A stretch of 64,000 bases of DNA, taken from assembly GCF_017908595.1 (NCBI RefSeq), contig NZ_JAGKTL010000001.1, forward strand, positions 434,001 to 498,000, given 5' to 3'. The translations under genes were made by a program, and so were the position numbers. A model generated the notes under the pieces. It made no database searches, had not been told where the DNA came from, and saw only the letters and a list, made by a program, of their open reading frames with translations. Shown here one piece after another: positions 9,716 to 62,958 of this stretch; position 1 is the first letter of the stretch; the number at the start of each line of letters is the position of its first letter. The DNA comes from Rhodothermus bifroesti (GTDB lineage: Bacteria > Bacteroidota > Rhodothermia > Rhodothermales > Rhodothermaceae).

Positions 9716-11176
9716 TCAAGGCAAAGGCCGATAGCGTACGCCCAGCCGTAGCCCTAAGTTATCGGGGTAAAGCTGCCCCACATCTGCCCCTAGGGCTGCT
9801 AAAATGGCCAACGGACTTCCTCCAGAGCGCCACACCACCTCCAACAGTCCGGAAAGCTGCTCCGGTGGTGGCTCAAAGCGATAGGTTGTCCCCGGTTGCT
9901 GGAGCACGTCCCGCCCGTTATACGTCCCGTAGTTACGCGTGTAGGTCGCCAGCAGTCGATAGGACCAACCCTGTCCCAACTGCCCCATGAGCGCTACATG
10001 GTGGCCCACTACCCGATTGTTTTCCACCCCTTCGATCAAGCGTTGCTGCCGGTCCTCGGCCGCAAACATGAGCGGCGAGCCTACCGTGCGGCCATAGTGC
10101 GTCCACCCAGTCCGATACAGATAATGGTTGTAGTAATTATCCCGTCCCCCTGGCCCCCCCCGACCAGGACCTGGCGGCTCAGGGCCACTTTGGCGCTTTG
10201 TGTACAGAAACTCATAAACCACCCGCTGGACTAGCTTCCCTTGGCGATCCTGCAAGGATATCCCTAAAAGGCCGTCTTGGGGATTTTTAAACTTGAGCCC
10301 ATCGCGGTCTTCATACAAAAAGTGCCGGTAGACAAGCACGTCAAACCGCTCGCTATGCAGCGAGAACCCAAAGTCGTACACACCAAAGTGATCCCCCTGA
10401 ATGTAAATGCGCTCACCATAAGGAGCCCCTTCCCCCGCATTTAGGGCAAAGAAGGTTCGAAAGTAATCCTCTAAGCCTTGAGGCAGGCGACCGACATTGG
10501 GGTTGCGGGAAGTACCCCCCCAAAAGGCATCGTGCAACAAGCCGGCATAGATGCGCCACCGCGGAGATCCGACGCGCACGTAAAGGTATTTCTGGTGCAG
10601 ATAGGGATTTTCAATTTGCCGAAAGTCGCGCATCCAGCCATGCGCCCAGTAGCCATGAAATTGCACCCAGCCGCGCGTTCCAGGCACTGGGGTATAGCTT
10701 TTCGTGCGCACGACAATTTTAGGAATCGGCGTGGCATTCCCGCTTTCCACCAAAGAACCTGAAGAAAGCAGCGTGTCGACCGTGCCAAGCACTTCCCGCT
10801 GACGCCCTACATAAGCCTCTAAAAAACCTACGCGTAGCTGTGCGTAGGCTGCTACTGCATGCAACGAAGGACTCTGAGAACCACGTGCTAGCACCTCCCC
10901 ACCCAGTTGGTAGCTTAGCCAGCGTCGCGGCTGCCGCGTCCAAGCCCCCTGCAACACCAGGTAGGCATTCGACGACCGGGGATCAAACCGCCCCCATTGG
11001 TTGGCAACCAGCCAAAAAGGCTGTCGATCGGCTGAGGCACCTAGAAATCCTGCCTCCCCCTCTAGGCTCAACGGTGAAGCCTCCTGTGCTTGGAGGGGCA
11101 TCAAGCTTAGCCAACCCCAAACCCACAGTCCAATAGACCACTGAACTTTCCGCAAAACCCAACGGTTGATGTGCAT
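9716..11176 (-). CDS. Wzi-like capsule assembly / outer-membrane beta-barrel protein
   Basis: A 486-residue exported protein with signal peptide (SIGLWVWGWLSLMPLQAQ then EASPL). The body is made of alternating aromatic/polar strands ending in GVRYRPLP, typical of an outer-membrane barrel. Segments such as GFLGASADRQPFWLVANQWG, LLHDAFWGGTSRNPNVG and FGVYDFGFSLHSERFDVLVYRHFLYED recall the Bacteroidota capsule assembly Wzi family. Wzi in enterobacteria anchors capsular polysaccharide at the surface. The gene is 72 bases upstream of the polytopic-DUF3047-RND run and divergent from a GT4 gene with a 35-base gap, so a shared promoter region for surface glycan genes is likely. Confidence 0.75.
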   Translation of the reverse strand: MHINRWVLRKVQWSIGLWVWGWLSLMPLQAQEASPLSLEGEAGFLGASADRQPFWLVANQWGRFDPRSSNAYLVLQGAWTRQPRRWLSYQLGGEVLARGSQSPSLHAVAAYAQLRVGFLEAYVGRQREVLGTVDTLLSSGSLVESGNATPIPKIVVRTKSYTPVPGTRGWVQFHGYWAHGWMRDFRQIENPYLHQKYLYVRVGSPRWRIYAGLLHDAFWGGTSRNPNVGRLPQGLEDYFRTFFALNAGEGAPYGERIYIQGDHFGVYDFGFSLHSERFDVLVYRHFLYEDRDGLKFKNPQDGLLGISLQDRQGKLVQRVVYEFLYTKRQSGPEPPGPGRGGPGGRDNYYNHYLYRTGWTHYGRTVGSPLMFAAEDRQQRLIEGVENNRVVGHHVALMGQLGQGWSYRLLATYTRNYGTYNGRDVLQQPGTTYRFEPPPEQLSGLLEVVWRSGGSPLAILAALGADVGQLYPDNLGLRLGVRYRPLP

Positions 11177-11211
11177 ATGGCTGCCGCGATAAAACCCGAA
11201 GTCTGCTGAGC

Positions 11212-12321
11212 ATGCCTCCCCGCGTCCTCCACTTCAAATCGATCTATCTCAATCGCTCCGAAACATTTATTGATCGCCTGATACGCCACCTGCAACGCTA
11301 CGATCCCATCGTAGCCACCCTCTTCCCCAAGCATTATACCGAAAATCTCCCTATCTATACCCCTTCGGGTTGGTGGGCGTGGCGACGCGACTGCTGGCTC
11401 AAGCAACTCAACCGTACCCCTCGGTTTCTCTACGGGCTTTGTCGCCGGCTCCAACCTGCGCTCGTGCACGCCCATTTTGGCCTTGATGGCTACCGGCTTA
11501 TCGGCCTAGCGCGAAAGACTGGGCTTCCTCTCGTAGTCAGCTTTTACGGACACGACGTTTCCCGCCTGCCTGATGCTGCTGGATGGCAACGCCGCTACCA
11601 ACGTTTGGCGCTGCAAGGCACGCGGTTCATTGCGGCGACCGAAGCCATGAAGCAACAGCTTCTCAGGCTAGGCTTTCCCGAAACCCGTATCGCTGTGGTG
11701 CGCTTCGGCCTTGACCTACACCAGTTTGCTTTTCAGGCGCGCCATCAAGCAGGTCCCCGATTGCTTCTGGTAGGGCGGCTGGTCGAGAAAAAAGGTCATG
11801 CTGTAGCCCTTGAAGCCGTAGCACGACTCCATGCACTGGGGATTGAAGCGCGCCTAAGCTGCCTAGGCGACGGCCCCCTCCGGAACGCCTTGAAAGAAAA
11901 AGCGCAAAAGCTTGGCATTGCTGATCGGGTGCTATTTTACGGCGAGGTTACAAACGAACAGGTCCACGACGCGTACTACACGCACGATGTGCTACTAGTG
12001 CCTAGTCAAACGGCTACGGATGGTGATCAAGAAGGATTACCCAACGTGTTGATTGAGGGACTGGCTTGTGGCATTCCGGTTATCGCTACGCGACATGCAG
12101 GCATCCCCGAGCTCGTGCAGCATGAAAGCACAGGCCTATTGGTGCCCGAAGGCGACGCAGAAGCGCTGGCAGCAGCCATCCTGCGACTTATGGAAACTCC
12201 TGGACTGGTTGCTCGGCTAAGCTATGCGGGACGCCTTGCTGTTGAACAGCTGCATAGCCTGGAACGCATGGTGGGTGATGTCGAAGCCGTATATGACGAT
12301 GTCTTAAAATGCATCCCATAA
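11212..12321 (+). CDS. GT4 glycosyltransferase, WcaL-like
   Basis: A 369-residue GT4 enzyme. The N-terminus HFKSIYLNRSETFIDRLIRHL and the segment LVHAHFGLDGYRLIGLARKTGLPLVVSFYGHD match the colanic-acid-type glycosyltransferase subgroup (WcaL/AmsK). The donor site is LLLVGRLVEKKGH, and the C-terminal motif is DGDQEGLPNVLIEGLACGIPV, with the conserved glutamates. Its own 3' end overlaps the ATG of a broken membrane-protein gene by 13 bases, indicating they once formed one operon. It probably acts at the cytoplasmic membrane on an exopolysaccharide repeat unit; the exact linkage is unknown. Confidence 0.85.
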   Translation: MPPRVLHFKSIYLNRSETFIDRLIRHLQRYDPIVATLFPKHYTENLPIYTPSGWWAWRRDCWLKQLNRTPRFLYGLCRRLQPALVHAHFGLDGYRLIGLARKTGLPLVVSFYGHDVSRLPDAAGWQRRYQRLALQGTRFIAATEAMKQQLLRLGFPETRIAVVRFGLDLHQFAFQARHQAGPRLLLVGRLVEKKGHAVALEAVARLHALGIEARLSCLGDGPLRNALKEKAQKLGIADRVLFYGEVTNEQVHDAYYTHDVLLVPSQTATDGDQEGLPNVLIEGLACGIPVIATRHAGIPELVQHESTGLLVPEGDAEALAAAILRLMETPGLVARLSYAGRLAVEQLHSLERMVGDVEAVYDDVLKCIP

Positions 12322-12770
12322 CTGTTCGCCGGCTGCTTTTTGCGGTTTTGATTTTTCTCCCCTTACAATACGGCACCGTGGGCTTGGTACAACTTGTCAC
12401 CGGACGCGAACCCTGGCCTGCGCTGGTTATGCCGGGCTTTAAAGCAACATGGGACGGCCGCGCACCACTCTTGGCTTCAAAGGTGAGCTTCGTTGCCTAC
12501 GATACCGATTTATTGCAGCAGCAATTGCTGCTGCAACCTGAACGGGCATTTGCTTAGCGGAGCGTTGCTTACGGCGCTGGCCTTCTCGACGTCTCTTATT
12601 GGTGGCGCTGGTGGCTATGCCTATCGGCATTTATGCCGTACTGCAAATTTCCTTTCACTTTGCCGCAGCGGAACTGCTGCTGTTGGTTTTGCCATTAGAC
12701 TTGTGGTTAAATCGCTTGCTTTCCATACTGGGGAAAACTTCTTTCCGCTGTTGCGGCATTGGAATCATAA
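12309..12770 (+). pseudogene. frameshifted small membrane-protein gene
   Basis: The frame beginning at the ATG at 12309 encodes a membrane helix (RRLLFAVLIFLPLQYGTVGLV) and a soluble part with GREPWPALVMPGFKATWDG, then stops at 12555-12557. Immediately downstream the plus-one-shifted frame encodes two clear hydrophobic segments (RRLLLVALVAMPIGIYAVL and AAAELLLLVLPLDLW). The original frame then resumes with a plausible C-terminus (WGKLLSAVAALES) ending at the TAA 12768-12770, which abuts the stop of the convergent GT2 gene. Two compensating shifts explain all three pieces. This is either decay or sequence error. Family not recognised; a ~150-residue protein with three helices is reconstructed. 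Confidence 0.55.
12513..12536. repeat. perfect 24-bp palindrome
   Basis: A fully self-complementary 24-base sequence made of two 12-base arms (TTGCAGCAGCAA then its complement, centred on AATT). It lies about 20 bases before the frameshift of the broken membrane-protein gene, where it encodes LQQQLLLQ-like residues. It could promote polymerase slippage or cruciform-related sequencing error. Confidence 0.8.
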
Positions 12771-51060: not shown

Positions 51061-52137
51061 AGGCATACCCACAAGCCTTCCTGCAAGGTTTGCCAAAGCG
51101 GAGCTTTGGGGCTGCAGTGCGTAGGCTGCTTCGACGGCCTGGCGGGTCTCTGCTGCATAGCCTTGGGCCAAAAGACGCCGGGCTAGCTTAAGCAGGCTCA
51201 GCGCCTCGGCATGCCGTGCAACTTCAAGCTCGGCCTGCGTGAGCAGTGGCGCGAGACAGCGAATGGCCTCTGCTTGTTGTAAATGATACTGACCCTCCGC
51301 TGCGTCTCCTAGCGCGTTAAGCAGGCGCCCAAGCTGATAGTGCGCGGCAAGCTGCCAGGGACGCGCTGCCACTACGGCGCGCAACATTGCTACAGCTTCA
51401 GCAGTTTGGCCGGTGCGTGCCAGCAGCATTCCCAGGGCCAGCTGGTAGTCTACCTTTTCCGGGGCCCATCGAAGCGCTTTGCGCGCTGCTTGGAGCGCTT
51501 CAGGGTAGCGGCCTTCGGTTTCGTAAAGCTGGCGCAGCCCATCCCATGCTTCAGCCAGCGTACTGTCAAGACGCAGGGCTTCCAAAAAAGCTACAGCTGC
51601 ACTATCTGCCTGCCCAAGTGCTTGGTAGAGATGCCCAAGTCCAAGCCAAGCGGCCGCACGAAGCAATCCTTCGGCCTGGCGCAGTGCCTGATTGTAAAGA
51701 GACACCGCTTTGCGCAAATGCCCTTGTTGCTCCACTACGCGGGCCAGCAGCAAGCGGGCTTCAGGGTGCGCTGGGGCCCGCGCCAACGCTTCATAAAGCA
51801 GAGCTTCAGCTTGGCTGAGCTGTCCCAGTTCACGCAGCAGCGCTGCCTTCCATACGTAGCCTTCAGGCCTTTCTGGGGCGATTTGGCATAAACTATCGGC
51901 CAGCAGCAGCACCTGCGCTCGGTTTCCTGCACGATAAGCCTGCGCAAGCTGCGCTGTCAGTTGCTGCACCACATCCTGATCTGCAGGCTTGCGACAAGCC
52001 AGCAGCGATACAAGCAGCGTAAGGCTCAGGCCAAAGCACCACAGCTTGAGCGCACCACCAGTTCGGCCTGCAGATTGACCTGCACCGCAGGTCCACTGCG
52101 CCCCTCGATTTGGTCGATCAAAATATTGGCTGCCCAC
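51040..52137 (-). CDS. TPR-repeat lipoprotein
   Basis: A tetratricopeptide protein with repeats of about 34 residues through most of its length (for example AEALLYEALARAPAHPEARLLLARVVEQQGHL and AAVAFLEALRLDSTLAEAWDGLRQLYETEGRYPEAL). A lipoprotein signal is visible as KLWCFGLSLTLLVSLLAC, with the Cys as acylation site, but it lies 30 residues after the only upstream ATG (52137). The real start is therefore unclear: no ATG, GTG or TTG precedes the signal closely, and the nearest in-frame candidate is a CTG at 52044. The 5' part overlaps the end of the lacI-type gene by 112 bases from the ATG. It probably sits in the periplasm as a scaffold; partner unknown. Confidence 0.75.
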   Translation of the reverse strand: MGSQYFDRPNRGAQWTCGAGQSAGRTGGALKLWCFGLSLTLLVSLLACRKPADQDVVQQLTAQLAQAYRAGNRAQVLLLADSLCQIAPERPEGYVWKAALLRELGQLSQAEALLYEALARAPAHPEARLLLARVVEQQGHLRKAVSLYNQALRQAEGLLRAAAWLGLGHLYQALGQADSAAVAFLEALRLDSTLAEAWDGLRQLYETEGRYPEALQAARKALRWAPEKVDYQLALGMLLARTGQTAEAVAMLRAVVAARPWQLAAHYQLGRLLNALGDAAEGQYHLQQAEAIRCLAPLLTQAELEVARHAEALSLLKLARRLLAQGYAAETRQAVEAAYALQPQSSALANLAGRLVGMPLEKRPR

Positions 52138-53045
52138 TGGCCTTTTTCGTAGATCGGCTGGTGTACTGTGGTGAGCGGGGGACAGGTGTATTGGGCCACC
52201 GGCAAATCATCAAAGCCAACTACCGCCATCTCGCTAGGCACCCGCAGGCCTGCTTCGTAGAGCGCCAGCAGCGCCCCAATAGCCATCGTATCGCTGGTAC
52301 AAAAGACCGCGGAAAAATCTGGCCCTCGCGCCAGCCAACGTTTCATAAGTGCATAGCCCGCATGCTGAGAGTAATCTCCCTCTTCAATTAACCGCTCATC
52401 CAACTCAGCCCTAGCATCCCTCAGGGCCTGCAGGTAACCTGCCCGGCGGTCTCGCGACTCTTGCAAGGCCGCATTACCCAGCATGAGCGCAATGCGGCGG
52501 TGGCCTAAGCGGCACAAATGCCGCACAGCCCGATAGGCTCCAGCAAAGTTGTCTACATCGACAGAGTGCACGTGCGGGTGTGCCGGGTCGTGCCCTACCA
52601 GCACCACGGGCACCTCCCGAGCGCTAAGCGACTCGAGCACACAACTAGCCACCTCTTGCGTTAGCAGCACATAGCCATCAAACCGATGCTCGTAAAGAAT
52701 ACGCGAGGCCAGGGCTTCCTCGGCATCTGCAGAAAGCATCGACAAAGACACAAAATAGCCGCGCCGGATGCACTGCTCGAAAATGCCTAGGTGCAGCAGC
52801 GTCCAAAACCCGTTGGCCAAAGCTTCATCGCTGCGGCGCGGTGTGAGAATGCAAATTTCATAGGTGCGCTGCCGTGCCAGACTGCGGGCCACCGAACTGG
52901 GATGGTAATTGTACTTCCGGATCACTTCCAAAACGCGCCGCTTTGCCTCTTCACTCACGTTGGGATGGTTGTTCAGCACGCGCGAGACCACCGAACGTGA
53001 AACGCAGGCCAAACTGGCTACTTGGTCGATGGTTAGCTTTTCCAT
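52026..53045 (-). CDS. LacI-family transcriptional regulator
   Basis: A 339-residue LacI/GalR repressor. The N-terminal helix-turn-helix is LTIDQVASLACVSRSVVSRVLNNHPNVSEEAKRRVLEVIRKYNYHPSSVARSLA, including the hinge helix that inserts at a central CpG of the operator. The periplasmic-binding-like effector domain follows (FDGYVLLTQEVASCVLESLSAREVPVVLVGHD, FSAVFCTSDTMAIGALLALYEAGLRVPSEMAVVGFDDLPVAQYT). It is the third gene of the GMC-small subunit-lacI-TPR run. Palindromes GGGA-N-CG-N-TCCC near the SusC remnant and GH20 gene, and a weaker one near nagB, fit its expected operator type. The effector is probably an amino sugar (inferred). Confidence 0.9.
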   Translation of the reverse strand: MEKLTIDQVASLACVSRSVVSRVLNNHPNVSEEAKRRVLEVIRKYNYHPSSVARSLARQRTYEICILTPRRSDEALANGFWTLLHLGIFEQCIRRGYFVSLSMLSADAEEALASRILYEHRFDGYVLLTQEVASCVLESLSAREVPVVLVGHDPAHPHVHSVDVDNFAGAYRAVRHLCRLGHRRIALMLGNAALQESRDRRAGYLQALRDARAELDERLIEEGDYSQHAGYALMKRWLARGPDFSAVFCTSDTMAIGALLALYEAGLRVPSEMAVVGFDDLPVAQYTCPPLTTVHQPIYEKGQWAANILIDQIEGRSGPAVQVNLQAELVVRSSCGALA

Positions 53046-53079: not shown

Positions 53080-53691
53080 TTAGCCAAGCTTCAAGTGGGC
53101 CAGCACTTCTTCCGGACATCCCGTCCATTCTGGAACGGCAGTGTTGCCCTTGTAACCTAAGTCTTCCATCCCCATCTGGCTGGTCCAAAAACCCGAGGCA
53201 ACCAGGTCGCGCAAACTGTTAAAGAAGGCTACGCCTGGCTGCATCTCAGGCGGCGCAACCTCGGGATAGGCAATCTGCTCCAGCATTTCTTGCTGCTGGC
53301 TTGGGGTACAGGCCACAAAGGGTTCGCCATAGCGTTTGAGGCAATGGTAATCAAGCCAGGCTAAGCCTCCTCGGATGGCTGTCTGGCGCCGCTCCAGGCC
53401 TGGAATAAGCGGATCCGTCATGATGTAGTCGATAAAGGCCGGCACACCGGCGTCGCTGGCACTGCCTGAACGCTCGTCGGCTGGAATAATCCAGTCAGCC
53501 AAGACCGTAATCGTTCGGTACTCATGCTCTGTAAAAAACTGCGGTTTACGGTCTGGGCTTGGCTGGGTCTGGCCTTGCCGCTGGTGGGCTTGATGGATTT
53601 CTTCCGGGCGACAGCCAAAGCTAAACGTGGGTGCTGCGGCCATCAGCGCCAGCAGCTTAAGCGCATCACGCCGGCTGAGCTCGCTACTCAT
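53080..53691 (-). CDS. gluconate 2-dehydrogenase subunit 3-like protein, Tat-exported
   Basis: A 203-residue small subunit of a GMC-type membrane dehydrogenase. The N-terminus has the twin-arginine signal SRRDALKLLALMAAAPTFSFGC; the following Cys could also be lipidated. The body carries the family pattern EHEYRTITVLADWIIPADERSGSASDAGVPAFIDYIM and a C-terminal QPGVAFFNSLRDLVASGFWTSQMGMEDLGYKGN. Its ATG overlaps the TGA of the GMC catalytic gene by four bases, so the two are co-translated. It should carry its folded partner to the periplasm. No cytochrome c subunit is present. Confidence 0.9.
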   Translation of the reverse strand: MSSELSRRDALKLLALMAAAPTFSFGCRPEEIHQAHQRQGQTQPSPDRKPQFFTEHEYRTITVLADWIIPADERSGSASDAGVPAFIDYIMTDPLIPGLERRQTAIRGGLAWLDYHCLKRYGEPFVACTPSQQQEMLEQIAYPEVAPPEMQPGVAFFNSLRDLVASGFWTSQMGMEDLGYKGNTAVPEWTGCPEEVLAHLKLG

Positions 53692-55424
53692 AGGTTTCCT
53701 TGTTTACGCTGCTCGATAATGTACTCCGCTGTGCGCCAAGCCAGCGCCAGAATCGTCCAGGTTGGATTTTTGTGCGGCATCGAAACAAACGGTGCCGCAT
53801 CTACGACGAAAAGGTTTGGTACCTCGTGCGCTTGGCACTGCGGATTGAGCACCGACGTTTTGGGATCCTTGCCCATGCGTGTGGTGCCTGCTTCGTGGAT
53901 AATCTCGCCCGGCTTGGTAATGCCATAGCCGCGCTCTGGTCCGGGCATCTCGTCCAGCGGTTCTCCTCCCATAGCCCGAATGATTTCCCGAGCGGTTTCT
54001 TGCATGTGCCGCACCTGGCGTAGCTCCTCCTCACTCCATTGCACGTGAAAGCGCAGCACGGGAATGCCATAGCGGTCGACCACATTTGGATCCACCGTAC
54101 AGTAGTTTTCATAGCGGGCGATCATTTCGCCGCGTCCTGCAAAGCCTACAACGGCTCCGTAAAGCTTTCGGTAATCTTCCTTGAGCTGCAGCCCATATCC
54201 CCCACCGCCCTTAGGCCGTGGTTGGCCATCTGCGCCTGGCAGCCGACCATTGAGCCGGTGAATCCCTGCCCCAAAGCCATAAGCCGGCATGCGGCGACCA
54301 CCCCAAACCTCTAGATGATACCCCCTAGGGAAATCTAGCCGCTGGTTGTAGGCCCACCATGGAATGTAAATGTGCATGCCGCCCACGCCATCTTCGTTGT
54401 GGGGTGGGGTATTCACTAGGGCCGGGATAAAGCCGGCTACGCTAGTGCCTGTCGAATCCATCAGGTAGCGTCCCACCAATCCACTTCCATTGGCTAGGCC
54501 GTTTTCGTAGCGCGGTCCCTTCGAGTTGAGTAGCAATCGGGCGGTCTCACAAGCACTGGCGCCCAACACCACAATGCGTGCCCGTACCTGCCGCTCTTGG
54601 AGTGTCTCCTTATCGATGTAGGAAACCCCCCGTGCCCGCAAGTTCTCGTCGACCAAGATTTCTCGCGCCATGGCGTTCGGGATGATTGTCAACCGGCCCG
54701 TATCTAGTGCTGGAGGGAGCAGCACATAGGTGGAAGCAAAGTTCGCCCGAACTGTGCAGCCTCGGTTGCATTGGCCGCAGTAGTGACAGGCAGCACGGCC
54801 ATTAAGCGGCCGCGTTAGGATCGACAGGCGCGAAGCCAAAACCGGTATGCCCAGCTTTTCACAAGCCCGCGCTACCAGCAGCTCATAACAACGCGGCTTA
54901 GGCGGCGGCAAAAAGATTCCGTCTGGTTCGTTATAAAAATTATCCCTTGAACCAAACACCCCAATAAGCCGATCGACCTTGTCATAGTAGGGCGCCAGAT
55001 CTTCGTAGCTGATTGGCCAGTCGTCGCCATAGCCATCACGACTTTTGCCCTTAAAATCGTCTGGTCCAAAACGCAGTGAAATGCGTCCCCAGTGGTTAGT
55101 CCGCCCACCCAGCATACGGGCCCGAAACCACATCCAGTCGGTCCCTTCGTCCTTCAGGTACGGCTCGCCGGGGATCTCCCATCCCCCATAGCAGGCGTCA
55201 AATTCGCCAAAGGGCCGCTCCGTGGTTGACGCCCCACGCCGGGGCGAGGCATAGTTCCAGGTAAACATCGCCCCATCACGGGCTACATCCCACATCGGAC
55301 CGGCTTCGAGCATCACGACATTGGCCCCCGCCTGCGTAAGTACATAGGCAGCCATCCCCCCACCAGCGCCCGACCCAATAATGCATACATCGTATTCGGA
55401 AGCGCGCTGCAACACTTGAGGCAT
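53688..55424 (-). CDS. GMC-family FAD oxidoreductase (sugar or alcohol dehydrogenase)
   Basis: A 578-residue flavoprotein of the glucose-methanol-choline family, gluconate 2-dehydrogenase-like. It has the FAD motif DVCIIGSGAGGGMAAYVLTQAGANVVMLEAGP, a GGRTNHWGRISLRF segment, a cysteine-rich insert CHYCGQCNRGC that may hold structural thiols or a metal, and the C-terminal GMC domain with GTTRMGKDPKTSVLNPQ and MPHKNPTWTILALAWR. The start at 55424 gives the usual N-terminus; the open frame reaches 15 codons upstream. It has no signal peptide of its own and probably rides with the Tat-borne small subunit. The substrate is likely a sugar or sugar acid, unproven. Confidence 0.88.
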   Translation of the reverse strand: MPQVLQRASEYDVCIIGSGAGGGMAAYVLTQAGANVVMLEAGPMWDVARDGAMFTWNYASPRRGASTTERPFGEFDACYGGWEIPGEPYLKDEGTDWMWFRARMLGGRTNHWGRISLRFGPDDFKGKSRDGYGDDWPISYEDLAPYYDKVDRLIGVFGSRDNFYNEPDGIFLPPPKPRCYELLVARACEKLGIPVLASRLSILTRPLNGRAACHYCGQCNRGCTVRANFASTYVLLPPALDTGRLTIIPNAMAREILVDENLRARGVSYIDKETLQERQVRARIVVLGASACETARLLLNSKGPRYENGLANGSGLVGRYLMDSTGTSVAGFIPALVNTPPHNEDGVGGMHIYIPWWAYNQRLDFPRGYHLEVWGGRRMPAYGFGAGIHRLNGRLPGADGQPRPKGGGGYGLQLKEDYRKLYGAVVGFAGRGEMIARYENYCTVDPNVVDRYGIPVLRFHVQWSEEELRQVRHMQETAREIIRAMGGEPLDEMPGPERGYGITKPGEIIHEAGTTRMGKDPKTSVLNPQCQAHEVPNLFVVDAAPFVSMPHKNPTWTILALAWRTAEYIIEQRKQGNL

Positions 55425-55510
55425 AGCTTCTCTGCAAAGTGAATCGTTACCAAAGTATAGGCATAGCAAAACTCAGCCTCAAGCCCATGTTTGGGTGAAA
55501 CGCGCATTTT

Positions 55511-55522: not shown

Positions 55523-55600
55523 CAAATGCAATCCCCCTTGCATCGTAGGGCTATCGCTTAGATCATGTGCGTTTAAGTGGAAACCGAAGGGCCGTTGACC

Positions 55601-57526
55601 ATGCCGTACGTAAATGCAACGCCAACAGCTACATTTGTCCCTCCGACACGTACCGAAACCCAGCGGGAGCGTGTACCCGTTCGCATTTTCGACAATCCTG
55701 CCCAGATGGCCCGGGCTATAGCAGAACACATAGCCAACCTGATCCAACAGCGACGTGCAGAAGGGCGAAAGGCTGTCCTAGGACTGCCTACGGGCTCGAC
55801 CCCCATTGGGGTTTACCAAGAGCTTATCCGCATGCACCGCGAAGAAGGGCTCGACTTTTCGAACGTGGTCACCTTCAATCTGGATGAATACTACCCTATG
55901 CATCCAGAAAGCCTGCAAAGCTATCACCGGTTCATGCGGGAAAATTTATTTGATCACCTCAATATTCCCCCCGAAAACATCCACATTCCCCGCGGTGACC
56001 TTCTACCAGAAGAAATCGAGGCTTATTGCCAAGCTTACGAAGAGGAAATCCGTAAAGCCGGGGGACTAGACCTAGTACTTCTAGGGATTGGCCGCAGTGG
56101 CCATATTGGCTTTAATGAACCAGGCTCTGGTCCAGAAACGCGCACGCGACTGGTCGTCCTGGATGAAATCACGCGCAAAGATGCGGCCAGTGACTTTTTT
56201 GGCGAAGAAAACGTGCCTCGCCAAGCCATCACCATGGGGATTGGGACCATCCTGGATGCCCGCGAAATTATCTTGATGGCCACCGGCGAACATAAAGCGC
56301 CTATTGTGCGCCAAGCGGTCGAAGAGCCCCCCAACCGTCAGGTCCCCGCCAGTTTTCTCCAGACCCATCCTAACGCTACGGTTTACCTGGATCGTGCCGC
56401 AGCAGGTGAACTCACCCGTGAAAAAACCCCTTGGCTTGTAGGCGAAGTAGTCTGGGACCGGCAGATGGCCAAGCGGGCGGTCATCTGGCTTTCGGAAAAG
56501 CTCGGGAAAGCTATTTTAAAGCTAGAGGCAGCCGACTTTTATCAGCATCACCTGCACAGCCTGGTGCATGCTTATCCTAGCGTCGATGCATTGTGCTTGG
56601 AAATTTTCGAGGACTTGCGCCAACGCATCATCTATCCGCACCAGCTTTTTAAGCACCAGCGCGTCATCGTCTTCAGCCCCCATCCCGACGACGACGTTAT
56701 CTCCATGGGCGGCATGCTCGACAAGCTGGTGGCCAATGAAAATCAGGTCACGGTAGCCTACATGACCAACGGCTCGGTAGCCGTTTTTGATGCCGACGTG
56801 CGGCGCTACCTGCGCTTCGTCGAGCTCAGTCATGAGATCCTCGGCCTCGAAGGGGAAGCACTGGCCCGCTTCCGAAAAAGCCAGCAAGAAATTTTGGACT
56901 TTTTGGCTCGTAAGCAGCCGGGGCAAGTGGACCTGGAGGTAATCCAAAAACTCAAAGCCCACATTCGCTATGCTGAAGCGGTAGCTGCTATTGAGGTTAT
57001 GGGGCTTTCGGCCAAGCATGCGCGCTTTTTGGATATGCCGTTCTACAAAACGGGAACGGTGCGCAAAGACCCTATTGGCGAGGCTGACATCCGGATTGTA
57101 CTCGAACTGCTCGAAGAGCTTCGACCGCAGCATCTTTTTGTGGCAGGAGATCTGTCGGATCCGCATGGCACCCACCGGATGTGCTACACAGCCATCGGAC
57201 AGGCGCTTGAACGCTACCACCAAAGGCATCCCCGCGAGGAATGGCCCTTGGTGTGGCTTTACCGTGGCGCCTGGCAGGAATGGGAAGTCCACCAGGCCGA
57301 TGTCTTTCTACCCCTGTCGAAAGCGGACCTGGACCGCAAAATCGAGGCCATCTTCAAGCACGAAAGCCAAAAGGACCGTGCGATGTTTCCAGGAGCCTAC
57401 GACGACAGGGAGTTTTGGCAGCGTGCCCGAGACCGCAACCGCGGCACGGCCGAAACCCTTAACCGCCTCGGCCTTCCTGAATTCTATGCCGCAGAGGCTT
57501 TCGTTACCACCTATGAGATGCCTTAA
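55601..57526 (+). CDS. NagB-like glucosamine-6-phosphate deaminase fused to PIG-L deacetylase
   Basis: A 641-residue fusion (ATG at 55601; an in-frame GTG lies eight codons upstream). Residues ~25-285 resemble NagB: GLPTGSTPIGVYQEL, VVTFNLDEYY with Asp95, and GIGRSGHIGFNEPGSG. The Asp of the usual NDGHIAFNEP motif (Asp141 of E. coli) is Ser166 here, while His168 and Glu173 remain. Residues ~355-600 are a PIG-L/LmbE zinc deacetylase with HPDD at 361-364 and DPHGTH. The domain order matches the long NagB-like proteins of Bacteroidota. It may combine GlcNAc-6-phosphate deacetylation and deamination, which would explain why no nagA is nearby (inference). It is divergent from the GMC operon. Confidence 0.9.
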   Translation: MPYVNATPTATFVPPTRTETQRERVPVRIFDNPAQMARAIAEHIANLIQQRRAEGRKAVLGLPTGSTPIGVYQELIRMHREEGLDFSNVVTFNLDEYYPMHPESLQSYHRFMRENLFDHLNIPPENIHIPRGDLLPEEIEAYCQAYEEEIRKAGGLDLVLLGIGRSGHIGFNEPGSGPETRTRLVVLDEITRKDAASDFFGEENVPRQAITMGIGTILDAREIILMATGEHKAPIVRQAVEEPPNRQVPASFLQTHPNATVYLDRAAAGELTREKTPWLVGEVVWDRQMAKRAVIWLSEKLGKAILKLEAADFYQHHLHSLVHAYPSVDALCLEIFEDLRQRIIYPHQLFKHQRVIVFSPHPDDDVISMGGMLDKLVANENQVTVAYMTNGSVAVFDADVRRYLRFVELSHEILGLEGEALARFRKSQQEILDFLARKQPGQVDLEVIQKLKAHIRYAEAVAAIEVMGLSAKHARFLDMPFYKTGTVRKDPIGEADIRIVLELLEELRPQHLFVAGDLSDPHGTHRMCYTAIGQALERYHQRHPREEWPLVWLYRGAWQEWEVHQADVFLPLSKADLDRKIEAIFKHESQKDRAMFPGAYDDREFWQRARDRNRGTAETLNRLGLPEFYAAEAFVTTYEMP

Positions 57527-57662: not shown

Positions 57663-58595
57663 TCAGACTTTAGCAGATGCTTCTGCCAGCATGCGCCGAG
57701 CCAACAGCAACGCACCTTCAACAGGCCGCCGCTGCTCGACTTCGACAGACCAATCCGGCAAAACGCTTTGCAGCTTTCGACACAGGCACTCAACGTAAAA
57801 CGGCTCTCTGGTTAGCCCCCCTGCCAACGCAATGCACGGCCTGACTGCTTCAAGCTTCCAGAGCAGCCAATCTACTTGGGCCACCAGTTGGGCCACTTGT
57901 TCTTCCACAATGCGCAAAGCTACGGCATCCCCTGCCCGAGCAGCCTCAAGCACCACGGGGGCAAACTCCTGCACCGGCCAGCGATCTTGGTAAACATGGT
58001 GAATAATCGCGTCACGCTCGCTAAGCCCAAAGCGTTCGGCTAGCAGCTCACGCAACCGCGTAGCCGGCCCCCCATCTAAGGCGTGGGCTACGGCCTGCAA
58101 CCCAGCCCGGCCAAGCGCAAACCCACTTCCTTCATCACCGAGCAAATAACCCCAGCCTCCGACCACCTCAATCTGACCGCTAAGCGAGCGACCCAAAAGC
58201 ACTGAACCAGTACCCGCAATAATCACCACGCCACTTTCGCCCTCAAAAGCGGCCTCCAGGGCGATCTCCGCGTCGTGCACAACGCGAACCTGGACACTCC
58301 GGCCACCATCGGAGAGCACCTGCTGTAGTCGCCGAGCAACCAGCTCCTGATCTTTTTTGCGCCCAGCCCCAGCAATCCCAGCACAAATAAAAAGACCTAT
58401 AGCACCTACATAGTGACGCAGCGCTTGCTCAATCAGCTCCTGAAGGACTGCAACCGTCTGCTCAAAACCTACCCGCTGCAAATTCGCCCCCGGGCCATAA
58501 AGATGGACGCGCGTCTGCGTTAAATCTGATTCAGCCAGCAGCTCTGTGGACGAACCGCCGACATCCAAGCCGATAAATAGCTGTTGCGTATCCAC
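57663..58595 (-). CDS. BadF/BadG/BcrA ATPase-fold amino-sugar kinase
   Basis: A 310-residue kinase of the ASKHA fold, similar to N-acetylglucosamine kinase. Phosphate motifs are FIGLDVGGSSTELL at the N-terminus and GESGVVIIAGTGSVLLGRS near residue 125; GGWGYLLGDEGSGFALGR follows, and IALAGGLTREPFY is the adenosine motif. It should phosphorylate GlcNAc (or GlcN) to the 6-phosphate, the substrate of the adjacent NagB-like fusion. It converges on that gene across a 136-base gap in which I see no gene, and it is divergent from the SusC remnant with two LacI-type operators between. Confidence 0.88.
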   Translation of the reverse strand: MDTQQLFIGLDVGGSSTELLAESDLTQTRVHLYGPGANLQRVGFEQTVAVLQELIEQALRHYVGAIGLFICAGIAGAGRKKDQELVARRLQQVLSDGGRSVQVRVVHDAEIALEAAFEGESGVVIIAGTGSVLLGRSLSGQIEVVGGWGYLLGDEGSGFALGRAGLQAVAHALDGGPATRLRELLAERFGLSERDAIIHHVYQDRWPVQEFAPVVLEAARAGDAVALRIVEEQVAQLVAQVDWLLWKLEAVRPCIALAGGLTREPFYVECLCRKLQSVLPDWSVEVEQRRPVEGALLLARRMLAEASAKV

Positions 58596-58840: not shown

Positions 58841-59602
58841 ATGCAACACCGCTACCCTAAGAACTACAAAAGGTGGTTATGCCTAGGCATGCTGCTTTTC
58901 GGAGCCACCTCTGCACAGGCACAGGTAGCCGTGCGCGGTATTGTCCGCTCTGCAGATGATGACAGTCCGCTCCCTGGGGTCAACATTGTGGAAGTGGGCA
59001 CAATGACCGGGACCACGACCGACGCCGACGGCAACTTTGCACTCACGGTCAGCTCTGCTCAGGCTACGTTACGGTTCTCGTTTGTAGGCTTTGAGACGCT
59101 AGAGCTTTCACTAAACGGCCGTACCTATGTAGAAGTTTTGCTGCGGCCTTCAGTGGCCGTTTTGGGAGAAGTGGTCGTAACAGCACTAGGGATTGAGCAC
59201 CAAAGCCGCGCTGTCGGCTATGCGGTAAGCCAGGTCAATGCCCGAGATCTCGTTGCGGGCACCGAAACGAACTTCGGTAACCTGCTGCAAGGCAAAGTGG
59301 CGGGCCTAGAGATCAGCCCAACCGCAGGAGGCACAGGGGCTTCAACAAGGATTGTGATTCGCGGCGTTTCGTCGCTCACCGGCGACAACCAGCCGCTCAT
59401 TGTGGTCGATGGTGTCCCTATCGACAATACTACGATCGGCTCGGCCGGAATGTGGGGCGGCTTCGATGGCGGGGACGGAATTTCAAGCCTGAACCCAAAC
59501 GACGTGGAAAGCATCTCGGTACTTAAGGGTGCAGCAGCCGCAGCCCTCTATGGAACGCGCGCCCGCAACGGCGTGATCTTGATCAACACGCGCTCCAAAA
59601 AG
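58841..59602 (+). pseudogene. SusC/RagA TonB-dependent receptor, N-terminal remnant
   Basis: The first ~254 residues of a SusC-type outer-membrane sugar importer. It has a signal peptide (CLGMLLFGATSAQAQ), a carboxypeptidase-regulatory-like domain (VRGIVRSADDDSPLPGVNIVEVGTMTGTTTDADGNFAL), the link EVVVTALGIEHQSRAVGYAVS, and the plug domain with LQGKVAGLEISPTAGGTGASTRIVIRGVSSL and ARNGVILINTRSKK. The whole barrel (~700 residues) is missing; the sequence jumps into a SusD C-terminus in another frame and stops at 59695. Remaining codons show no decay, so the deletion is recent or an assembly join. Confidence 0.88.
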
Positions 59603-60216
59603 GCATGCCCAGTGGCTACAATGCCACCACAATCCAGAACCATCCAAGCTGGACCGGAGACTTGGCCGACTACTCACGGGTTAATCCCTTGCTAACCGAT
59701 TTCGACGATCCGGTCTTCTTCTTGACCTATGCCCAAACGGCCTTGCTACGGGCCGAAGCGGCCGTGCGCGGGTGGACCAGTGAAAACCCGGCAACACTGT
59801 ATGCCGAAGGCGTGCGCGCTGCTATGAAACAACTCTCCCTCTACGACGCAGGTGGGAGAGCCGACATCTCGGACGCTGCGATTAATGCTTACCTAGCTGC
59901 AAATCCTCTCAGCAACGACCCCAACGAGGCCTTGCGTCAAATCAACGAGCAGTACTGGGTAGCTTCTTTTCTCGATGGCATCGAAGCTTGGGCTAACTGG
60001 CGACGCAGCGGCTATCCCATACTCGAACCTGCCCCCGTGGATGATCCTAACCCGTATCCCGGCAACGTGACCAACGGCCAAATTCCACGGCGCCTCCCCT
60101 ATCCGGTCACCGAAGGCGTGCTCAATAAGGCAAACTATGAAGAAGCCCTTAGCCGTCAAGGCTTGCGGGGAGACCCCAGTGACATGGCCGTTCCCGTCTG
60201 GTGGGACCGACCCTAA
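59603..60216 (+). pseudogene. SusD-like lipoprotein, C-terminal remnant
   Basis: About 203 residues matching the C-terminal half of SusD/RagB-like starch-binding lipoproteins: SWTGDLADYSRVNPLL, FFLTYAQTALLRAEAAVRGW, EALRQINEQYWVASFLDGIEAWANWRRSGYP, and the terminal IPRRLPYPVTEGVLNKANY and VWWDRP. The N-terminal ~300 residues with the lipobox are absent, and it is out of frame with the SusC piece. An ATG at 59605 exists but nothing suggests expression of a useful product. It is followed by a strong terminator and the GH20 gene. Confidence 0.88.
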
Positions 60217-60360: not shown

Positions 60361-62958
60361 ATGGACCCGCTGAAGTCGTTTATCTACGGGGCTTTGCTCC
60401 TTACTGCCCCCGCCTTTGCCCAGTACCCTGCAGCCGAGCGCATAACGCTCTATTGGGGCCTTTCGGCCAATCAAGAAAACGGCCGCGCACGCTGGGAGCT
60501 GACCTTGGTCAACCAAGACACGGTGGCACTGCCAGCTTCAGGCTGGACGCTCTTTTTTAACTTTATGCGCCCCATCGACGCCCAAAGCGTCTCGCCTATG
60601 GTGCGGCTTACGCATATAAACGGTGATTTTTACCGACTAGAGCCTACCGAAACGTTCACCCCTCTTCCAGCTGGCGCGCGCCGTACGCTAACGTTTGAAT
60701 CTTTGGGTCCCATCCTTAAAGCCATTGATGCCCCAACGGGCTTTTATTTTGTATTTCGCGATACCGAAGGCCAAGCGTTGCCGCCCGCGCCAGTACGCGA
60801 CGTGCGCATTTTACCCTTTGTCTCCGCCTTTCAAACGCAGAGCCATCCGGCAGATCAGCGCCCTAGTCCTACCCCAGCGCTCGATTACTACCAAAATGCC
60901 TACCTCCACCTGCTTCCATCTGAAACCTTGATTCCCGTTATTCCTACCCCCTACCACCTTTCCCGTCAAGCGGGCAGTTGCCAACTCGATCGCGCGACAA
61001 CCATCACCTATGAGCCTGCTTTGGCCCGCGAAGCGGACTTCTTAGCCCAAGCATTGACGCCCCTTTTAGGCACGCGCCCGCACCTGGTCGAAGGCGGTGA
61101 GGTTCAAAAAGGCATTCGGCTTCAGCTGGGCACTGTGCGCCTTCCGGATACGGGTCAACAAGTCTCCAGCGAAGCCTATCACCTCCTTATTCACCCCGCT
61201 ACCGGCGTCACGATCACCGGCAGCGATCCAAGCGGTGTATTCTATGGCATCCAAACGCTCCGGCAACTCATCGATCCGAGCCAATATCGCCAAGCCAGTG
61301 GGGCCTTCTCGTTGCCTGCGGTAGAGATCATCGATGCACCCCGCTTTGGCTACCGTGGGTTACATCTGGACGTAGCCCGCAACTTCCAGCCTAAAGACGT
61401 GGTGCTCCGGTTGCTCGACGTCATGGCCCTTTACAAACTCAACCGGTTTCATTTTCACCTGACCGACGACGAAGGCTGGCGGCTGGCGATTGATGGCCTG
61501 CCTGAGCTAACTGAAATCGGGGGTTGCCGAGGACACACGGAAACCGAGTTGGACTGCCTCATCCCTTCTTACGGCTCAGGCCCTGAGGCCGGACGGCTAC
61601 CCGGAAGCGGCTACTACACCCGTGAAGACTTTATCGAAATCCTTCGCTATGCCACAGCCCGGCACATCGAGGTGATTCCGGAGATCGACATGCCCGGCCA
61701 CGCGCGTGCTGCTATTAAAGCTATGGAAGCCCGCTACGCGCGCTTAAAGGCGAAAGGACTCTCTGAGTCCGAAGCCGCTGCCTACCGCCTGATTGATCCG
61801 GCGGACACGTCCACTTACCGCTCTGTACAAGGCTGGGACGACAATGTGATCAACGTTTGCCTGCCTTCGACCTATCACTTTTTAGAAAAAGTGATAACAG
61901 AGCTCCAACGGCTGTATGCCGAGGCCGGGGCCCCACTGCGCGTGGTACATACCGGTGGCGACGAAGTGCCTCACGGCGCTTGGAGCGGCTCTCCAGCCTG
62001 CCAAGCGCTGATGCGGTCCGAAGGGATCCAGGATCCGGCCGAGCTACAGCCATATTTTCTGCAACGGTTTCATCAGATCTTGAGGCAGCGGGGTTTGCGC
62101 ACAGCAGGATGGGAAGAAATCGCCCTTGTTAGTACCGAAGAAAACCATCGGCGCGTCCATCGCCCTAATCCACGCTTCCGCAACGAAGGCTTTCTGGTTT
62201 ATGCCTGGAACAACATTTGGGGTAGTGGCGCCGAAGATCATGCCTATCGGCTGGCCAATGCCGGCTATGACGTGGTGCTTTCTCTGGCCTCAAACCTATA
62301 CTTTGACTTGGCCTACACCAAACACCCCGAGGAAGCGGGGCTCTACTGGGCAGGATTTGTGGACAACGATACACCCTATCGCTTGGAACCTTTCGAGCTG
62401 TTTCTAGGCCCCCTCTATGACTGGCTGGGCCGGCCGCTGCCGCCGGAAAGATTTGCGCACCATGAACGGCTGACGCCAGAAGGCCAGCGCCACATTGTCG
62501 GCATTCAAGGACAGCTCTGGGGGGAAACGCTGCGCACGCCTGACCGCGTCTTCTACATGGCCCTACCACGCCTGCTCGCACTGGCCGAACGGGCCTGGGC
62601 CCGGCAACCCGAATGGAGCCAAATTCAGGACTCCGACGCCCGCCGTCAGGCTTTCGAGAAAGCATGGAATGAATTTGCTAATCGCCTAGGCCAGCGCGAG
62701 CTGCCCCGCCTAGATGTGGTGTATCCTGACGCCTCCTACCGCCTACCTCCGCCAGGAGCTGTGGTCGAAAACGGCTATCTAAAAGCCAATGTGGCCCTAC
62801 CTGGCCTAGCCATCCACTACACGCTCGACGGCAGCGAGCCCACACCAGCCTCACCCCGCTACACCACGCCCGTTCGGCTCGAAGGCCACGGCGAAGTGCG
62901 GCTGCGCACATTCGACACCCGCGGCCGCGGCAGCCGTAGCGTACGCGTTGTTTATTAA
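60361..62958 (+). CDS. GH20 beta-N-acetylhexosaminidase, exported
   Basis: An 865-residue glycosidase that removes terminal beta-GlcNAc/GalNAc from chitooligosaccharides or glycans by substrate-assisted catalysis. It has a signal peptide (YGALLLTAPAFAQ), an N-terminal carbohydrate-binding domain (~30-165), a GH20b domain (~190-320), and the GH20 barrel from GYRGLHLDVARNFQPKDVVLRLLDVMALYKLNRFHFHLTDDEGWRL. The catalytic Asp534-Glu535 are in HTGGDEVPHGAW. A C-terminal CHB_HEX_C-like domain (IHYTLDGSEPTPASPRYTTPVRL) closes it. It would release GlcNAc for the kinase and NagB-like enzyme of the locus. Its stop overlaps the convergent amidotransferase gene by four bases. Confidence 0.95.
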   Translation: MDPLKSFIYGALLLTAPAFAQYPAAERITLYWGLSANQENGRARWELTLVNQDTVALPASGWTLFFNFMRPIDAQSVSPMVRLTHINGDFYRLEPTETFTPLPAGARRTLTFESLGPILKAIDAPTGFYFVFRDTEGQALPPAPVRDVRILPFVSAFQTQSHPADQRPSPTPALDYYQNAYLHLLPSETLIPVIPTPYHLSRQAGSCQLDRATTITYEPALAREADFLAQALTPLLGTRPHLVEGGEVQKGIRLQLGTVRLPDTGQQVSSEAYHLLIHPATGVTITGSDPSGVFYGIQTLRQLIDPSQYRQASGAFSLPAVEIIDAPRFGYRGLHLDVARNFQPKDVVLRLLDVMALYKLNRFHFHLTDDEGWRLAIDGLPELTEIGGCRGHTETELDCLIPSYGSGPEAGRLPGSGYYTREDFIEILRYATARHIEVIPEIDMPGHARAAIKAMEARYARLKAKGLSESEAAAYRLIDPADTSTYRSVQGWDDNVINVCLPSTYHFLEKVITELQRLYAEAGAPLRVVHTGGDEVPHGAWSGSPACQALMRSEGIQDPAELQPYFLQRFHQILRQRGLRTAGWEEIALVSTEENHRRVHRPNPRFRNEGFLVYAWNNIWGSGAEDHAYRLANAGYDVVLSLASNLYFDLAYTKHPEEAGLYWAGFVDNDTPYRLEPFELFLGPLYDWLGRPLPPERFAHHERLTPEGQRHIVGIQGQLWGETLRTPDRVFYMALPRLLALAERAWARQPEWSQIQDSDARRQAFEKAWNEFANRLGQRELPRLDVVYPDASYRLPPPGAVVENGYLKANVALPGLAIHYTLDGSEPTPASPRYTTPVRLEGHGEVRLRTFDTRGRGSRSVRVVY

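Follow-up and report, generated by a model that had tools for sequence, protein, structure and literature searches.

In E. coli, the acetyl group is removed by NagA, an amidohydrolase that is separate from and unrelated to the GlcN-6P deaminase NagB (1dea). Within E. coli NagB, Asp141 forms part of a proposed Asp-His-Glu triad, and Arg172 makes what we take to be the contact to the substrate phosphate. B. subtilis relies on a monomeric GlcN-6P deaminase, also termed NagB (2bkv/2bkx). Zinc deacetylases of the PIG-L/LmbE type, such as BshB and the archaeal diacetylchitobiose deacetylase, are stand-alone enzymes whose substrates are GlcNAc-malate or diacetylchitobiose. Proteins that join the NagB and PIG-L folds in a single chain are already catalogued as family NF002557/PRK02122, ‘glucosamine-6-phosphate deaminase-like protein’, and we found no biochemical study of this fusion in the literature searched. 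For a possible relative of the fusion, the chitin-locus NagB Fjoh_4557 of F. johnsoniae, the authors’ attempt at expression failed and deletion left growth on chitin unaffected (PMC5127042).

We analysed a stretch of 64,000 nucleotides from Rhodothermus bifroesti (hereafter the window) that encodes such a fusion. Its open reading frame of 641 amino acids starts at ATG 55601, with an in-frame GTG 5′ of it at 55577, and contains the following features.

55601..57526, plus strand: NagB-PIG-L fusion protein, family NF002557 (PRK02122), from the profile match (969.7 bits), PF01182 plus PF02585 and AlphaFold
55673..56431, plus strand: NagB (GlcN-6P deaminase fold) domain, about residues 25-277, from structural match and alignment columns
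56096..56098, plus strand: codon AGT of Ser166, the equivalent of E. coli Asp141 by alignment, a position that is Thr/Ser across the family
56189..56194, plus strand: Ser197-Asp198, replacing Arg172-Phe173 of canonical NagB, from column comparison of stand-alone NagBs and fusions
56654..57523, plus strand: PIG-L zinc N-deacetylase domain, about residues 352-641, from PF02585, structural match and motif

The NF002557 profile spans residues 16-639 (E 6e-292; cut-off 384), and a full-length match of this strength (970 bits) means that the fusion is not a matter of chance. Pfam placed Glucosamine_iso (PF01182) at residues 32-258 and PIG-L (PF02585) at 356-535, and both folds are present in the AlphaFold model (mean pLDDT 90.4). 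Against the NagB profile TIGR00502, the protein scored 268 bits (cut-off 236.9). Its NagB half superposes on the deaminases 1ne7, 1dea and 2bkv (Z ~38, rmsd 1.1-1.6), B. subtilis NagB being the closest fold by rmsd (1.1 Å, 41% identity). Asp95, His168, Glu173 and Lys232 correspond to the catalytic residues Asp72, His143, Glu148 and Lys208, which the fusion has in common with E. coli NagB, whereas Asp141 and Arg172 are replaced. In an alignment of 79 fusions from Bacteroidota, Rhodothermota, Gemmatimonadota, Planctomycetota and a few other groups, D72, H143, E148 and K208 are each retained in at least 78 members, and the TGxTP phosphate loop is kept together with Lys208. The PIG-L half has the fold of BshB and the diacetylchitobiose deacetylases (Z ~21-22; 22.5 for BshB and ~21 for the latter) and their zinc motif HPDD...PHGTH, and differs from them in extra helices (~397-466). 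The first-pass annotation had described both zinc motifs, HPDD (residues 361-364, 56681-56692) and DPHGTH (residues 520-525, 57158-57175), as intact; they are, and both are invariant across a 52-member alignment of fusions.

Around the fusion, the window holds four further features of interest.

52026..53045, minus strand: LacI-family regulator, a conserved neighbour, from domain search and sister-species synteny
57663..58595, minus strand: BadF/BadG-family sugar kinase, a convergent neighbour, from PF01869 (93.6 bits) and synteny in four sister species
58841..60216, plus strand: SusC/SusD remnants (SusC N-terminal part, SusD C-terminal part), from domain search and sister-species comparison
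60361..62958, plus strand: GH20 beta-N-acetylhexosaminidase, from PF00728 (335.8 bits)

The gene order LacI, GMC/Gluconate_2-dh3, fusion, BadF kinase, SusC/D and GH20 is maintained in four sister species. The kinase, which scored 92 bits against the NagK_SO3507 model (cut-off 370), is a probable GlcNAc or GlcN kinase. In sister species L160, an additional 664-amino-acid open reading frame with a GHL10 domain (10605-12599) lies between fusion and kinase, an interval of ~137 bp in the window. Divergent from the fusion, a GMC oxidoreductase and its Gluconate_2-dh3 partner (53080-55469) resemble LacAB-type periplasmic glycoside 3-dehydrogenases, and a related locus (L165) has a 3-keto-disaccharide hydrolase close by. 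At 58841-60216, the N-terminal part of SusC continues straight into the C-terminal part of SusD. L160 encodes full-length SusC (1046 amino acids) and SusD (540 amino acids) at the same place, and most of the length of both was matched in L162 and L163; the window remnants reflect either an internal deletion of ~3 kb or an assembly collapse.

The absence of a nearby nagA, recorded in the first-pass annotation, extends to the whole window genome (2.88 Mb, 98.7% complete), in which nothing scored above the cut-off of 225.65 for NagA (TIGR00221). The top match, at 36.8 bits, covered only short ends of an amidohydrolase-like protein of 458 amino acids that probably carries a signal peptide. We also considered a divergent NagA elsewhere in this genome and rejected it, TIGR00221 matches being below cut-off; the Pfam amidohydrolase search gave other matches too. 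Among 31 genomes of the window’s order, 30 carry the fusion and none has NagA over the cut-off. Across the class (108 genomes), the fusion is present in 88 and a NagA-like match in 4, just 1 of them over the cut-off; in two of these four (G166 and G198), NagA adjoins a separate short NagB. The fusion is the sole NagB homologue in 50 class genomes that have no NagA, and of the 33 class genomes that lack NagA but encode a stand-alone NagB, 32 carry it. At the level of the phylum (296 genomes), the fusion was found in 125 and NagA in 44 (both in 24, fusion only in 101, NagA only in 20, neither in 151). We sought an anticorrelation across these genomes and found none (Fisher p 0.10), and we discarded phylum-wide avoidance. 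The argument for replacement thus comes from the class and from single genomes, and the fusion does not always replace NagA, since 24 of the 125 fusion-bearing genomes carry both.

Loci in other lineages place the fusion in similar company. In another genus of the order, the genes that come after it encode a ROK kinase, CBM9 and GHL10-like proteins and a GH18 chitinase. At five Gemmatimonadota loci, it is followed by an SSF symporter with a BadF kinase nearby (detected by tblastn only at L055 and L060, and as overlapping frames at L050). NagA is present in none of these five genomes and no other NagB in four of them; the genomes are metagenome-derived, so a single absence says little, yet all five concur. 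These loci would make up a complete set for import, phosphorylation, deacetylation and deamination only if the fusion performs both final steps. A Pfam tally of immediate neighbours over the named loci was diffuse, and targeted searches told more; the fusion is associated with a GlcNAc-polymer gene set, its neighbours including GH20, SusC/D, GH18, GHL10 and ROK.

From domains, residues, genome content and operons, we predict that the fusion is a bifunctional GlcNAc-6P deacetylase/GlcN-6P deaminase, a reading that we consider likely. Imported GlcNAc would be converted to GlcNAc-6-phosphate by a BadF or ROK kinase. The protein’s own C-terminal PIG-L zinc domain would then take the acetyl group off GlcNAc-6-phosphate, in the place of the separate NagA used by E. 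coli, and the N-terminal NagB domain would turn GlcN-6-phosphate into fructose-6-phosphate by deamination and isomerisation. Catalysis in the NagB half would proceed through Asp95, His168 and Glu173, with Thr or Ser at the Asp141 position. The two activities, their exact substrates and the order of the steps are predicted here. A bifunctional enzyme of this kind had been proposed in the first-pass annotation; genome content and operons now support that proposal, but not the altered mechanism or other substrate drawn from the loss of Asp141.

The window genome also encodes a second NagB, stand-alone, canonical and with Arg172, as do sister species, so most of the deamination need not fall to the window fusion. 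This stand-alone NagB lies beside an MFS transporter and a ROK kinase, and ~2 kb from these genes is a PIG-L protein that probably carries a signal peptide (L009:7255-8178). A second NagB would suit a reading in which the PIG-L half is the only part of importance to the window organism, acting on GlcNAc-6P or GlcNAc, while the canonical NagB deaminates and the fused NagB half has a regulatory or substrate-channelling role. The same reading is favoured by G299, where a stand-alone NagB, SusC, SusD, GH20 and the fusion all lie inside ~20 kb, and by two species of one genus (L182 and L183, from G229 and G237) whose fusions carry D72Y and H143N in the NagB half with intact zinc motifs. Both of these genomes lack NagA and encode a canonical NagB (419 bits), and their residue pattern suggests that, with a separate NagB available, the PIG-L half is the part retained. 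Because this dead NagB half is accompanied by a separate NagB and the zinc domain by no NagA, the two species count in favour of the bifunctional reading as well. As an account of the window organism, we nevertheless find a role for the PIG-L half alone doubtful, given that the fusion is the lone NagB homologue in the 50 class genomes and in at least four Gemmatimonadota genomes, and that elsewhere the NagB half keeps its catalytic residues almost without exception.

The Arg172 column bears most directly on the substrate. All 21 stand-alone NagBs compared have Arg or Lys there, whereas 77 of the 79 fusions lack Arg172 (Arg in 2), its usual replacement being Ser followed by a conserved Asp (73 of 79). 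Judged from the alignment, this loss, which the first-pass annotation did not mention, is more notable than the change at Asp141, and any hint of altered substrate binding would come from it. It is unexpected in a hexose-6-phosphate enzyme and to that extent counts against the bifunctional reading, and it is our best reason for treating the predicted substrate as tentative. The loss of Arg172 and the new adjoining Asp would be in keeping with a different amino sugar as substrate, for example unphosphorylated GlcNAc or GlcN or another 2-amino sugar derivative; BshB and diacetylchitobiose deacetylase are among the nearest PIG-L folds, and PIG-L enzymes often use unphosphorylated GlcNAc compounds. 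We think such a substrate unlikely in view of the retained TGxTP loop and Lys208, the sugar kinase within the operons, and Arg77, Arg110 and Arg/Lys165, basic residues conserved specifically in fusions that could make up for the missing Arg172. In the bifunctional reading, the phosphate would be held without Arg172, possibly by these residues. The corresponding view of the whole family, a NagA-independent route in which, within one polypeptide, PIG-L deacetylates and an Arg-less NagB fold removes the amino group from some other sugar that may carry no phosphate, also strikes us as improbable.

The replacement of Asp141 had been the emphasis of the first-pass annotation, which read RSGHIGFNEP in the window protein as Ser166 for Asp141 with His168 and Glu173 kept. 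Alignment agrees with those assignments (His143 and Glu148 in E. coli), but not with the step from the loss of Asp141 to an altered mechanism or another substrate. Once aligned with characterised NagBs and the long NagB-like proteins, Ser166 is no anomaly: the 79 fusions have Thr (64), Ser (11), Asn (3) or Asp (1) in this column. The sole Asp occurs in a Planctomycetota MAG (L118:1719-3545; GRDGHIAFNEP). The window protein shares both Thr/Ser at this position and the two-domain layout with NF002557, and on its sequence it is an ordinary member, among the minority with Ser. In B. subtilis NagB, which is a functional deaminase (PMC3648570), the residue is Asn (motif GIGRNGHIGFNEP), as it is in 17 of the 21 stand-alone NagBs compared. 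Asp141 is thus not a true defining feature of NagB, and its loss as a mark of altered chemistry was ruled out by the family-wide alignment and B. subtilis NagB. Like the window fusion, B. subtilis NagB lacks Asp141 and also Lys160, which in E. coli belongs to the allosteric site; unlike the fusion, B. subtilis NagB has no PIG-L domain and keeps Arg172. That Ser166 abolishes catalysis in the NagB half or gives it a new mechanism, a notion that draws on the place of Asp141 in the proposed E. coli triad, is very hard to credit with Thr or Ser in 75 of 79 members and Asn both in the functional B. subtilis enzyme and in most stand-alone relatives.

The joint replacement of Asp141 and Arg172 across a large family amounts to a natural experiment on the residues that the NagB active site requires. 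If the bifunctional reading is right, the fusion family would close the deacetylase gap of GlcNAc catabolism in chitin and peptidoglycan eaters that lack NagA, among them Bacteroidota, Rhodothermota, Gemmatimonadota and possibly Planctomycetota. The label ‘GlcN-6P deaminase-like’ would then conceal a second catalytic activity, and the annotation would be corrected.
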